The notes under the pieces: model-generated
Databases searched by the model: none
What the model was told of the DNA's origin: nothing
What the model saw: only the letters and a program-made list of their open reading frames with translations
From: Sideroxydans sp.
GTDB taxonomy: Bacteria; Pseudomonadota; Gammaproteobacteria; Burkholderiales; Gallionellaceae
Direction: 5' to 3'
Assembly (NCBI GenBank): GCA_028710605.1
Contig: JAQTTU010000017.1
Coordinates: 1-40,240 of the forward strand
DNA length: 40,240 nucleotides
Shown: one piece after another, positions 6,646 to 9,668 of the stretch
Layout: each line of letters opens with the position of its first letter
How positions within the stretch are numbered: the first letter of the stretch is position 1
Made by a program: the position numbers and the translations under genes

Positions 6646-7923
6646 ATGAATAACCCGACACAACTCGGCAAATACCGTCTGATCAGAAAATTGGGGCAGG
6701 GTGCGACCAGCGTGGTTTATCTGGGGCACGACCCGTTTGCCGACCGCGAGGTCGCGGTCAAAGTCATCAAGCAGGAATTCCTCGACGATCCGAAAAACGG
6801 CAAGCAGAACCGCAAGCAATTGCAGACCGAAGCCGCGCTGGCGGGCAAGCTCGTTCATCCGCACATCGTGGCGACTTACGACGCGGTGATCGGCGACGAC
6901 CCGAGCTATATCGTGATGGAATATGTGCCGGGCGGCACGCTGGAAAAACACGTGCATTCGGACAATCTGCTGCCGCTGGACCGCGTGGTGGAATACATGT
7001 TCAAGTGTTGCCGCGCGCTCAATTACGCGCAGTTCAAAGGGGTCATCCACCGCGACATCAAGCCCGCCAACCTGTTGCTGGCCGGGGTGGACGAGATCAA
7101 GATTTCCGATCTGGGCGCGGCCATCCGGCTGGACACCGAGCAAACGCAAAGCAACGTCGGCTCGCCCAACTACATGTCGCCGGAACAGGTCAAGGGCGAC
7201 GAGGTTTCGCACCAGACCGACATCTATTCGCTGGGCGTGGTGATGTACCGCATGCTCACCGGGCGCTCGCCCTACAACGCGAAAAATCTGGCGCATTTGT
7301 ACCAGCAGATCATGTACGAGCCGCCGCCGCGCCCCACCCTGCTGCGCAACGACTTGCCGCCGCAACTGGAGCGCATCGTGATGCTCGCCATGCAAAAAGA
7401 CCGTTCGGAACGCTTCGCCACCTGGCGCGATTTCGGCAACGAGCTGGCCGAACTCGGCCACTTCGAAAAAGGCGATCTGGAGATCAACGAAAACGAAAAA
7501 TTCATTTCGCTGCGCAAGCTGGATATTTTCCAGGATTTCACCGACATCGAATTGTGGGAAATATTGCGCGTGGGCGAATGGCACAAGCAGCCGGCAAAAA
7601 CCGTGGTGATGCGCGAGGGCGATCCGGGCGACGCGTTCTACGTGCTGATCGAGGGCGGAGTCAGCGTGATACGCAATGGCCGCTTGCTCAACACCCTGAG
7701 CAGCGGCGACTGTTTCGGCGAAATGTCTTATATCAGCCGCAAACCGATGCTGCGTTCCGCCACCGTTTCCGCCAACAGCGAAATCACCTTGATGAAGGTG
7801 CTGCCTTCCCAGCTTGCGCAACTGTCCGACCGCTGCCAGTTGCATTTCAACCAGGTGTTTCTGTATGTGCTGGCCGACCGCCTGCGTCTGGCCGACGAGC
7901 GGTTCTCCAAGCAAGTAAGCTAA
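6646..7923 (+). CDS. Hanks-type Ser/Thr protein kinase with C-terminal cyclic-nucleotide-binding domain (paralogue 1)
   Basis: A 425-aa cytosolic protein with no membrane segment, unlike PknB-type receptors. Kinase domain, residues about 8-270: glycine loop GQGATSVVY (17-25), ATP lysine in VAVK (39), catalytic HRDIKPAN (135-142), metal-binding DLG in place of DFG (155-157), and GSPNYMSPEQ at the activation/P+1 loop. Residues about 285-410 form a cNMP-binding (CAP_ED) domain: FQDFTDIELWEILRVGEW, then REGDPGDAFYVLIEGGVSV, then the phosphate-binding cassette CFGEMSYISRKPMLRSATV with the key FGE and the Arg of RSA. The design suggests kinase output gated by cAMP or c-di-GMP-like ligands, or phosphorylation-linked sensing. 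A second kinase of the same architecture follows, with a RidA gene between. The substrates are unknown. Confidence 0.9.
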   Translation: MNNPTQLGKYRLIRKLGQGATSVVYLGHDPFADREVAVKVIKQEFLDDPKNGKQNRKQLQTEAALAGKLVHPHIVATYDAVIGDDPSYIVMEYVPGGTLEKHVHSDNLLPLDRVVEYMFKCCRALNYAQFKGVIHRDIKPANLLLAGVDEIKISDLGAAIRLDTEQTQSNVGSPNYMSPEQVKGDEVSHQTDIYSLGVVMYRMLTGRSPYNAKNLAHLYQQIMYEPPPRPTLLRNDLPPQLERIVMLAMQKDRSERFATWRDFGNELAELGHFEKGDLEINENEKFISLRKLDIFQDFTDIELWEILRVGEWHKQPAKTVVMREGDPGDAFYVLIEGGVSVIRNGRLLNTLSSGDCFGEMSYISRKPMLRSATVSANSEITLMKVLPSQLAQLSDRCQLHFNQVFLYVLADRLRLADERFSKQVS

Positions 7924-7953
7924 AATGCCGCCCTCGACCCATAGGAGGACACC

Positions 7954-8340
7954 ATGTCCAATAAAATAATTATTCAAACTCCCGATGCACCCGCCGCCAT
8001 CGGCACATACTCGCAAGCGGTGCGCGTGGACAACACCGTCTATCTTTCCGGGCAGATCGGCCTCGACCCCATGTCCATGACCATGGTCGAAGGCATAGAA
8101 GCGCAAGTCAACCGCGTGTTCCAGAACCTGCGCGCGGTGGCTTCTGCGGCGGGCGGCAGTCTGGACGATGTGGTGAAGCTCAACATCTACCTGACCGACC
8201 TCACCCACTTCGCCCGCGTCAACGAAATCATGGCGACGTATTTCCACCAGCCCTATCCGGCCCGTGCCGCCGTCGGCGTGGCCACCTTGCCGCGCGGCGC
8301 GCTGGTGGAAGCGGACGGCGTACTCGTGTTGCAGGACTGA
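7954..8340 (+). CDS. ridA: RidA-family enamine/imine deaminase
   Basis: Members hydrolyse reactive 2-aminoacrylate and related enamines made by PLP enzymes such as threonine dehydratase, and are small cytosolic trimers. At 128 aa it has the normal length. Conserved residues are present: IGTYSQAV (the Tyr and Ser near residues 17-18), [46 protein letters not shown] (the catalytic Arg of PARAAV and the Glu near the C-terminus). An excellent ribosome-binding site (AGGAGG) lies ahead of the ATG. It is 30 bp after the first kinase and 32 bp before the second, so the three should be one transcript. Whether the kinases regulate it, or it simply sits between duplicated genes, is open. Confidence 0.95.
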
Positions 8341-8372
8341 ACATTCATCAAGGCAGCAGCAGAAACATTTCC

Positions 8373-9668
8373 ATGCAAACGCAAATGAAGCAACCCATCG
8401 TCATCGGCAAATACACCCTCACCAAAATACTGGGACAGGGAGCGACCAGCACCGTGTATCTAGGCTACGATTCTTTCGCCAAGCGCCAGGTGGCCGTCAA
8501 GATGCTGAAGCAGGAAATATTGAACGACCCGAAACTGGGCAAGCTGCACCAGCGCCAGCTGGACAACGAAGCCTCGCTGGTGGGCAAGCTGTCGCACCCG
8601 CACATCGTGGCGATCTACGACGCGCTGATCGGCGACGATGCCAGCCACATCGTGATGGAATACGTGAGCGGCGGCACGCTGGAAAAATACGCCGAGCCGG
8701 ACAATCTGCTGCCGATCGACCGCGTGGTGGAATACATGTTCAAGTGCTGCCGCGCGCTGAACTACGCGCAGTTCAACGGCGTGATCCACCGCGACATCAA
8801 GCCCGCCAACATGCTGCTCACCGAAGACGGCGACATCAAAATCTCCGACATGGGCGCGGCCGTGATCCACGATCTGGAACGCACGCAAGTCAGCAACCTC
8901 GGCTCGCCCAGCTACATGTCGCCGGAACAGGTGCGCAGCGAAGTGCTGACGCACCAGACCGACATTTATTCGCTGGGCGTAGTGATGTACCGCCTGCTCA
9001 CCGGGCAGTCGCCATACCAGGCGCATAGCCTGGCCAGTTTGTGCCACCAGATTCTCAATATCCAGCCGCCCCCGTTGCGCGCCCACCGCCCCAGCATCCC
9101 GCCGGAACTGGAGCGGCTGGTGCTGCGCGCCATGCACAAAGAAAAAAGCGAGCGCTACCAGAACTGGAAAGACTTCGGCAGCGACCTCGCCTCGCTGGGG
9201 CGTTTCGACCAGAGCGCGCTGGTCGAAACCAACGACACCGAGAAATTCACCACCCTGCGCGAAATGTCGCTGTTCAGGGACTTCACCGACATCGAGCTGT
9301 GGGAAATCCTGCGCATCGGCGAATGGCAAAAGCAACCCGCGCAAACCGTGCTGATGCGCGAAGACGAAATGGGCGACGACTTTTACGTGATGATCAAAGG
9401 CGGCGTGAGCGTGACCAAGAACGGCCACTTGCTCAACCTGATTCGCGGCGACGATTGCTTCGGCGAAATGGCCTACATCAGCGGCAGAGTCGTGCCGCGC
9501 TCCGCCACCGTCACCGCCAGCAGCGAAGTCACCGTGCTCAAAATTTCGCCGAAACTGCTGCTGCAACTTTCCGACCATTGCCAGCTGCATTTCAACCGCG
9601 CCTTCCTGCGCGTGATGTCGGACCGCCTCAGAATGGCCGACCAGCGCTTCGCCGGATTGGCGAACTGA
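8373..9668 (+). CDS. Hanks-type Ser/Thr protein kinase with C-terminal cyclic-nucleotide-binding domain (paralogue 2)
   Basis: A 431-aa protein with the same architecture as the gene at 6646. Glycine loop GQGATSTVY (21-29), lysine in VAVK (43), HRDIKPAN (139-146), DMG in place of DFG (159-161), GSPSYMSPEQ, then a cNMP domain with MREDEMGDDFYVMIKGGVSV and CFGEMAYISGRVVPRSATV. Long stretches are identical to paralogue 1 (for example DRVVEYMFKCCRALNYAQF), so this is a tandem duplication. Differences concentrate in the N-lobe 50-60 region, the segment after the kinase domain and the cNMP β-roll entry (EGDPGDA against EDEMGDD), hinting that ligand binding differs. Another in-frame ATG lies four codons downstream (8385); neither has a strong ribosome-binding site. 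It ends 22 bp before the nucleotidyltransferase gene. Confidence 0.9.
   Translation: MQTQMKQPIVIGKYTLTKILGQGATSTVYLGYDSFAKRQVAVKMLKQEILNDPKLGKLHQRQLDNEASLVGKLSHPHIVAIYDALIGDDASHIVMEYVSGGTLEKYAEPDNLLPIDRVVEYMFKCCRALNYAQFNGVIHRDIKPANMLLTEDGDIKISDMGAAVIHDLERTQVSNLGSPSYMSPEQVRSEVLTHQTDIYSLGVVMYRLLTGQSPYQAHSLASLCHQILNIQPPPLRAHRPSIPPELERLVLRAMHKEKSERYQNWKDFGSDLASLGRFDQSALVETNDTEKFTTLREMSLFRDFTDIELWEILRIGEWQKQPAQTVLMREDEMGDDFYVMIKGGVSVTKNGHLLNLIRGDDCFGEMAYISGRVVPRSATVTASSEVTVLKISPKLLLQLSDHCQLHFNRAFLRVMSDRLRMADQRFAGLAN

Follow-up and report, generated by a model that had tools for sequence, protein, structure and literature searches.

What do two soluble Ser/Thr protein kinases, each carrying a cyclic-nucleotide-binding (CNB) domain, do on either side of ridA, the gene for a Rid family detoxifying hydrolase? 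The question is raised by a 40,240-nucleotide stretch of Sideroxydans sp. DNA (GenBank assembly GCA_028710605.1, contig JAQTTU010000017.1; contig C12 of a 3.36 Mb genome in 35 contigs), referred to here in its entirety as the window. An initial annotation of this DNA had proposed a kinase–RidA–kinase module for signaling and metabolite damage control. We find a real, conserved, and diverged pair of kinase–CNB proteins, K1 and K2, seated in an old spoT-ridA-recG cluster. The explanation that we favor, and consider probable, is a diverged pair of cyclic-nucleotide-gated kinases acting in the manner of the eukaryotic cGMP-dependent protein kinase (PKG), with RidA as a bystander; a kinase–RidA module is the weaker reading. 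The initial interpretation as a whole is partly supported. The core of the locus comprises the following features.

6646..7923, plus strand: K1, a soluble PknB-type Ser/Thr kinase of 425 amino acids (aa) with a C-terminal CNB domain (open reading frame, Pfam, tree)
6673..7413 (residues 10–256), plus strand: Pkinase domain of K1 (Pfam)
7108..7116, plus strand: DxG motif of K1, DLG (Leu in 29/29 K1; alignment)
7591..7830 (residues 316–394), plus strand: cNMP_binding domain of K1 (Pfam, model, fold match)
7705..7776, plus strand: phosphate-binding cassette of K1, GDCFGEMSYISRKPMLRSATVSAN (Glu359 and Arg370 in 29/29 K1; alignment)
7954..8340, plus strand: ridA, Rid family detoxifying hydrolase, 128 aa (Pfam, TIGR00004)
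8373..9668, plus strand: K2, a K1 paralog with the same architecture, 431 aa (open reading frame, Pfam)
8412..9158, plus strand: Pkinase domain of K2 (Pfam)
8847..8855, plus strand: DxG motif of K2, DMG (Met in 23/23 K2; alignment)
9336..9572, plus strand: cNMP_binding domain of K2 (Pfam)
9450..9521, plus strand: phosphate-binding cassette of K2, DDCFGEMAYISGRVVPRSATVTAS (alignment)

Open reading frames, Pfam matches, and hydropathy all agree with the description of a Hanks-type kinase–CNB pair that flanks ridA and has no membrane anchor. All three genes lie on the plus strand, with gaps of 30 bp (K1–ridA) and 32 bp (ridA–K2). Pkinase is matched at 177.3 bits by K1 and 174.5 bits by K2, and cNMP_binding (PF00027) at 52.5 and 49.6 bits (cut-off 27.5). 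Neither protein contains a membrane helix, the highest 19-residue Kyte–Doolittle mean being 0.99 for K1 and 0.98 for K2, compared to 2.48 for a transporter in the window. RidA scores 164.3 with TIGR00004 (cut-off 106.25) and 125.3 bits with Ribonuc_L-PSP.

The residues expected of both domains are retained. Our main alignment holds 67 homologs (29 K1, 23 K2, and 15 others), two K1 fragments of 187 and 229 aa from genome G024 having been dropped. Invariant in all 67 are Gly17 and Gly19 of the Gly-loop, Lys39 of β3, Glu62 of αC, Asp137 of HRD, Asp155 and Gly157 of DxG, and Gly358, Glu359, and Arg370 of the cassette; the HRD Arg is found in 66/67 and the APE Glu in 64/67. The Hanks-type motif set (Gly-loop, β3 Lys, αC Glu, HRD, DxG, APE) is present in 52/52 K1 and K2 sequences. 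So are the cassette Glu and Arg, which also occur in the 15 nearer homologs, and the window pair retains FGE...RSA, as initially annotated. A wider alignment of 45 sequences (A1), reaching down to 29% identity, keeps Glu359 in 45, Gly157 in 37, and Arg370 in 35. Because the cassette Arg can be lost in the wider family, its retention in every K1 and K2 is informative. With catalytic and cassette residues kept throughout the pair, cyclic-nucleotide-gated kinase activity would be the best reading of these sequences.

Structure models, like the CNB fold test, cover K1. The AlphaFold2 model of the full-length protein has a mean predicted local distance difference test score (pLDDT) of 85.7 and a predicted template modeling score (pTM) of 0.63. 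The best 50 listed matches in a fold search with this model are all kinases, so the CNB domain was modeled separately (pLDDT 91.0). Its fold matches in the PDB include PKG, CRP/GlxR with and without cAMP, MlotiK1, PKA RIα, and the CNB domain of PycTIR (8jsk). The best solved relatives of the kinase domain, by both sequence and fold, are PknB.

K1 and K2, which are 64% identical, form two clades (support 100/99 and 99/96, respectively) that group together (100/99) apart from the other homologs. As sister clades set apart in this way, they stem from a single duplication that predates the radiation of the genus (Sideroxydans/Gallionella-like), which bears out the proposal of a duplicated pair. 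The DLG and DMG motifs also hold across the clades: the DFG Phe position is Leu in every K1, Met in every K2, and Phe in 15/15 others, making the change peculiar to the pair. The initial annotation had further read different ligands into the β-roll entries, GDPGDA in K1 and DEMGDD in K2. These motifs are real in the window but do not separate the paralogs, as the Pro of GDPGDA occurs in only 2/29 K1 (the window and G017, its nearest relative) and the other 27 have Met or Leu, like K2; with a GDPGDA-type motif peculiar to two genomes, the claim of different ligands from this feature falls. Within the K1 clade, mean identity is 70% in the CNB domain and 76% in the kinase domain; within the K2 clade, the values are 84% and 82%. 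Judged by these values, the sensor is held in K2 and drifting in K1.

The arrangement of the pair around ridA varies across the genus, and its description requires the flanking features.

4950..6443, minus strand: BNR-repeat (sialidase-like) gene, divergent, upstream of K1 (Pfam)
9691..10212, plus strand: open reading frame of 173 aa with no clear family, inside the K2–recG gap (Pfam and NCBIfam scans)
10461..12617, plus strand: a gene we take to be recG, named from synteny; downstream neighbor of ridA in relatives

Our genus sample comprises 34 genomes, 30 of which have ridA; the other four (G008, G010, G019, G029; 62–73% complete) gave no ridA match and no K1 or K2. The closest named loci (63–91% identity) are assigned to Sideroxydans, Sideroxyarcus, Gallionella, Gallionellaceae, or only Nitrosomonadales or Gammaproteobacteria. 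K1 adjoins ridA in 30/30 ridA-bearing genomes. Eleven show layout A, K1-ridA-K2-recG (including the window; G001 and G024 are split over contigs), 12 show layout B, K2-ridA-K1-recG, and seven show layout C, K1-ridA-recG, in which K2 was not found elsewhere in the genome at E 1e-140. Of 31 stretches, 28 retain recG, the remaining three ending short of it, and 26 retain the BNR gene. In the 28 genus genomes measured, the gaps between ridA and the kinases are 11–52 bp, with one of 178 bp, and these short distances make co-transcription likely. A promoter scan yielded one promoter-like site against 1.9 expected.

The layout B genomes are monophyletic when the tree is built from recG (support 99) or from full-length K1 (96/79), but not when it is built from the K1 kinase domain, K2, ubiA, or ridA. 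The simplest reading of these trees would be a single exchange of places between K1 and K2 around ridA, and the orientation of the swapped genes is unchanged throughout. The K2 clade is recovered in the kinase-domain tree (63) and the CNB tree (99), and the K1 clade in the kinase-domain tree (99), although the CNB tree, as rooted, does not recover the latter. Comparison of these domain trees led us to reject domain swapping between the paralogs. No hybrid gene was seen, indicating that entire genes swapped positions. The presence or absence of K2 changes at least five times along the K1 tree. In layout C, ridA ends in GGATTGA in 7/7 genomes and overlaps the TTG start of recG by four bases in the six that are readable (G002 is masked); this shared junction points to an old arrangement lacking K2 or to spread by recombination.

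The RecG of layout B is 68–72% identical to that of the window, compared to 82–89% for ridA and ubiA, and groups with G035; recG may have a history separate from that of its neighbors. No ubiC was found (E 1e-10) in the nine layout B stretches that reach ubiA. The K2–recG gap is 792 bp in the window, approximately 0.9 kb in G001, and 237 bp in G025, and 12–105 bp in 7/8 layout A relatives measured (G025 is the other one). The open reading frame within the window's gap gave no match in Pfam and NCBIfam scans; a weak AbiEii match (E 0.004) was noted.

How might such proteins work? We infer that the CNB domains of K1 and K2 bind a 3′,5′-cyclic nucleotide (cAMP or cGMP), made by one of the cell's class III cyclases, and switch the N-terminal PknB-type kinase domain. 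With ligand bound by the cassette Glu and Arg, the long C-terminal helix would shift, so that the kinase would be freed or activated and would phosphorylate itself and other proteins. Since their duplication, which predates the genus radiation, the two have diverged in the DxG motif (DLG versus DMG), at the entry to the cassette (Gly versus Asp), and in the sensor, drifting in K1 and constrained in K2, so that labor is probably divided between them. The kinases would have entered the old spoT-ridA-recG cluster, with RidA an inherited neighbor, perhaps co-transcribed. The genome has seven PF00211 (class III cyclase) and two PP2C_2 matches over cut-off, as well as 16 cNMP_binding matches, 15 of them over cut-off. 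The stretch C15:275856–280354 groups a class III cyclase, which may be the source of the cyclic nucleotide, with a kinase and a PP2C phosphatase in less than 5 kb.

K1 and K2 share kinase motifs and fold with the PknB/Stk1-type Hanks kinases, but differ in having a CNB domain in place of a membrane helix or PASTA match; scores with the PASTA kinase equivalog NF033483 are 260.8 and 276.3, below its cut-off of 450. With eukaryotic PKG they share a kinase and a CNB domain in one chain, the latter matching PKG by sequence and fold. In PKG, however, several CNB domains precede the kinase, whereas K1 has a single one that follows it (kinase 10–256, CNB 316–394), and the kinase is nearer PknB. The initial comparison to a PKG in reverse order is therefore fair as a statement of how the proteins may work, and not as one of kinship: by analogy, K1 and K2 probably act as a bacterial PKG in miniature while standing outside the PKG family.

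Several observations weigh against this explanation. The DFG Phe is substituted in both paralogs. Within K1, Phe357 is Cys in 12/29 sequences and Gly328 is Ser in 9/29, and because the sensor drifts in this way, ligand binding by K1 may be weak in some lineages. The cassette Arg is missing from 10/45 A1 homologs, so the family as a whole cannot be credited with cyclic-nucleotide sensing, and at a pTM of 0.63 the gating geometry of full-length K1 cannot be read from the model. Finally, a functional tie would likewise leave K1 linked to ridA in all three layouts, as is seen in 30/30 genomes.

A more elaborate arrangement, which we regard as possible but doubtful, would have K1 and K2 act as a heteromer or as a relay, with the constrained sensor of K2 gating the drifting K1 kinase; the whole would be an independently reached bacterial counterpart of PKG whose members swapped around ridA, with K2 a come-and-go cassette. 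Six of the seven genomes that lack K2 are among the 12 whose K1 has Cys357. This overlap is a lead and no test, because the rows are related. As K2 comes and goes and places are traded, the dependence of K1 on K2 could be read from natural variants.

Less likely still is that the CNB domains have lost cAMP or cGMP sensing and serve for another ligand or for holding a dimer, while autophosphorylation or other cues set the kinases. The Phe357 and Gly328 changes in K1 and the missing Arg in A1 would fit such a loss, as would the PycTIR domain among the fold matches and the other ligands of CNB folds described in two publications (PMC2246266, PMC10959531). Against it, all 52 K1 and K2 sequences keep the cassette Glu and Arg, and within the K2 clade, conservation of the sensor (84%) equals or exceeds that of the kinase domain (82%).

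The initial annotation's most striking proposal was the link to RidA. In a functional triad, K1 and/or K2 would phosphorylate RidA, or RidA would act on the kinases, connecting cyclic-nucleotide signaling to metabolite damage control. The survey of the genus upholds the physical linkage: the contact of K1 with ridA survives both gene orders and the lack of K2 in seven genomes, at spacings that make co-transcription likely. Outside the genus locus the linkage disappears. We examined 52 further fused-kinase loci, 50 from other genomes and two from the window's own, 43 of which extend at least 1.5 kb to either side; a ridA match at E 1e-3 was absent from every one (0/52). Conversely, with 61 relatives searched and ridA flanks fetched for 15 order- or family-level genomes and a contig-end fragment (L178), ridA and recG occur without an adjoining fused kinase in 13 of the 15 loci fetched. 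A gene of the RSH (RelA/SpoT) type precedes ridA in three of those loci (L166, L172, L175). In L172 and L175, a weak kinase-domain match (25–27%) also lies on the opposite strand, some 4 kb upstream.

A published Acidithiobacillus cluster, gmk-rpoZ-spoT-ridA-hyp-recG, resembles the window in having ridA and then recG, and differs in that the window has kinases immediately 5′ of ridA and between ridA and recG (PMC6416229). In 11 genus genomes, a second RSH gene, probably spoT, lies upstream of the kinases on the same strand and contig, at 20–23 kb in eight and 77–88 kb in three; in the window's genome it is on a different contig. From these positions it looks as if the old spoT-ridA-recG cluster had been split apart in the genus.

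The RidA sequence bears no clear mark of a triad, the one hint in its favor being T95. A scan for genus-specific residues passed four columns, including the start Met and T95, which is Thr in 27 and Ser in two of 30 genus members and Thr in 3/15 others. G035, in which ridA has no adjoining kinase, has Thr at this place too. In addition, recG and the BNR gene are retained along with ridA, and the titles and abstract starts listed in searches of an open-access library contained neither this pair nor a RidA–kinase link. The functional tie is therefore weak, and we judge the triad improbable. RidA is probably an inherited neighbor of the kinases, not their partner, judging from gene order and sequence comparison.

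Finally, a role as anti-phage defense kinases of the PD-T4-6 sort is very unlikely: PADLOC models match K1 (4.4e-75) and K2 (1.4e-76) over almost the entire 292 positions, but the model is about one kinase domain long and covers residues 5–273 and 7–280, PADLOC gives it no cut-off, the mad6, PglW, and PASTA-kinase models hit the same stretch or parts of it, and the locus is a stable, genus-wide synteny and no island.

Fusion of a kinase to a CNB domain had been called rare in bacteria, a claim that does not hold in the class we sampled. Among 369 genomes drawn from that class (the window's own included, up to four candidates scored per genome), 67 match K2 with an E value no higher than 1e-62. 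The matches listed span both domains, bar a few rows (G394, kinase part only; G088 and G234, partial). Such fusions were in print by 2007, when Kannan et al. counted kinases as one of the partners to which CNB domains are joined in bacteria (PMC2246266). The "Other_bacterial" class of that study (phosphate-binding cassette consensus GEMALLDGEPRSATVVA) shares with K1 and K2 a cassette of the GEM..RSAT kind and fusion to enzymes; in the text available, the kinases are unspecified and neither this pair nor the ridA locus is described. A 2024 paper names CNB among the few accessory domains common to yeast or worm and Planctomycetota kinases (PMC11032199).

Paired fused kinases are found in 5/52 loci elsewhere, with two more in which the second match is kinase only, and other genes separate the two kinases in most such loci. 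In L061, L062, and L065 (Gammaproteobacteria), two fused kinases flank two opposite-strand genes of 145–146 and 526–554 aa, an arrangement common to all three records and thus a further kinase–X–kinase layout. The A1 sequences without Arg370 comprise eight Granulosicoccaceae/Granulosicoccus records and two Gammaproteobacteria (L074, L076, L078, L080, L084, L086, L090, L094, L107, L110). This mostly Granulosicoccaceae kinase–CNB branch still has Gly-Glu and perhaps binds a different ligand.

The window's genome encodes two further fused kinases, K3 (contig C13) and K4 (contig C8). Other genus genomes have at most one K3/K4-like match (57–65% to K4), so one of the two is an extra copy in this genome. 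Proximity of K4 to an RSH gene was considered as a tie to the stringent response and rejected: in the four genus genomes in which a K3/K4-like kinase and RSH genes are on one contig (G004, G007, G023, and G028), they are more than 200 kb apart, and the RSH gene near K4 differs from the one upstream of the ridA locus. Near K4, at L038:4100–5420, a segment of about 126 bp from the 3′ end of the RSH gene recurs approximately 1 kb downstream (98%), and between the copies, on the other strand, lies what by eye appears to be a small toxin–antitoxin-like pair.

If true, direct cyclic-nucleotide control of a bacterial Hanks kinase would join two signaling currencies that are usually separate in bacteria. 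The genus provides a natural test set, with both kinase orders and close relatives that have K1 alone. The link to RidA is probably an inherited neighborhood, and recognizing it as such spares a misdirected experiment.

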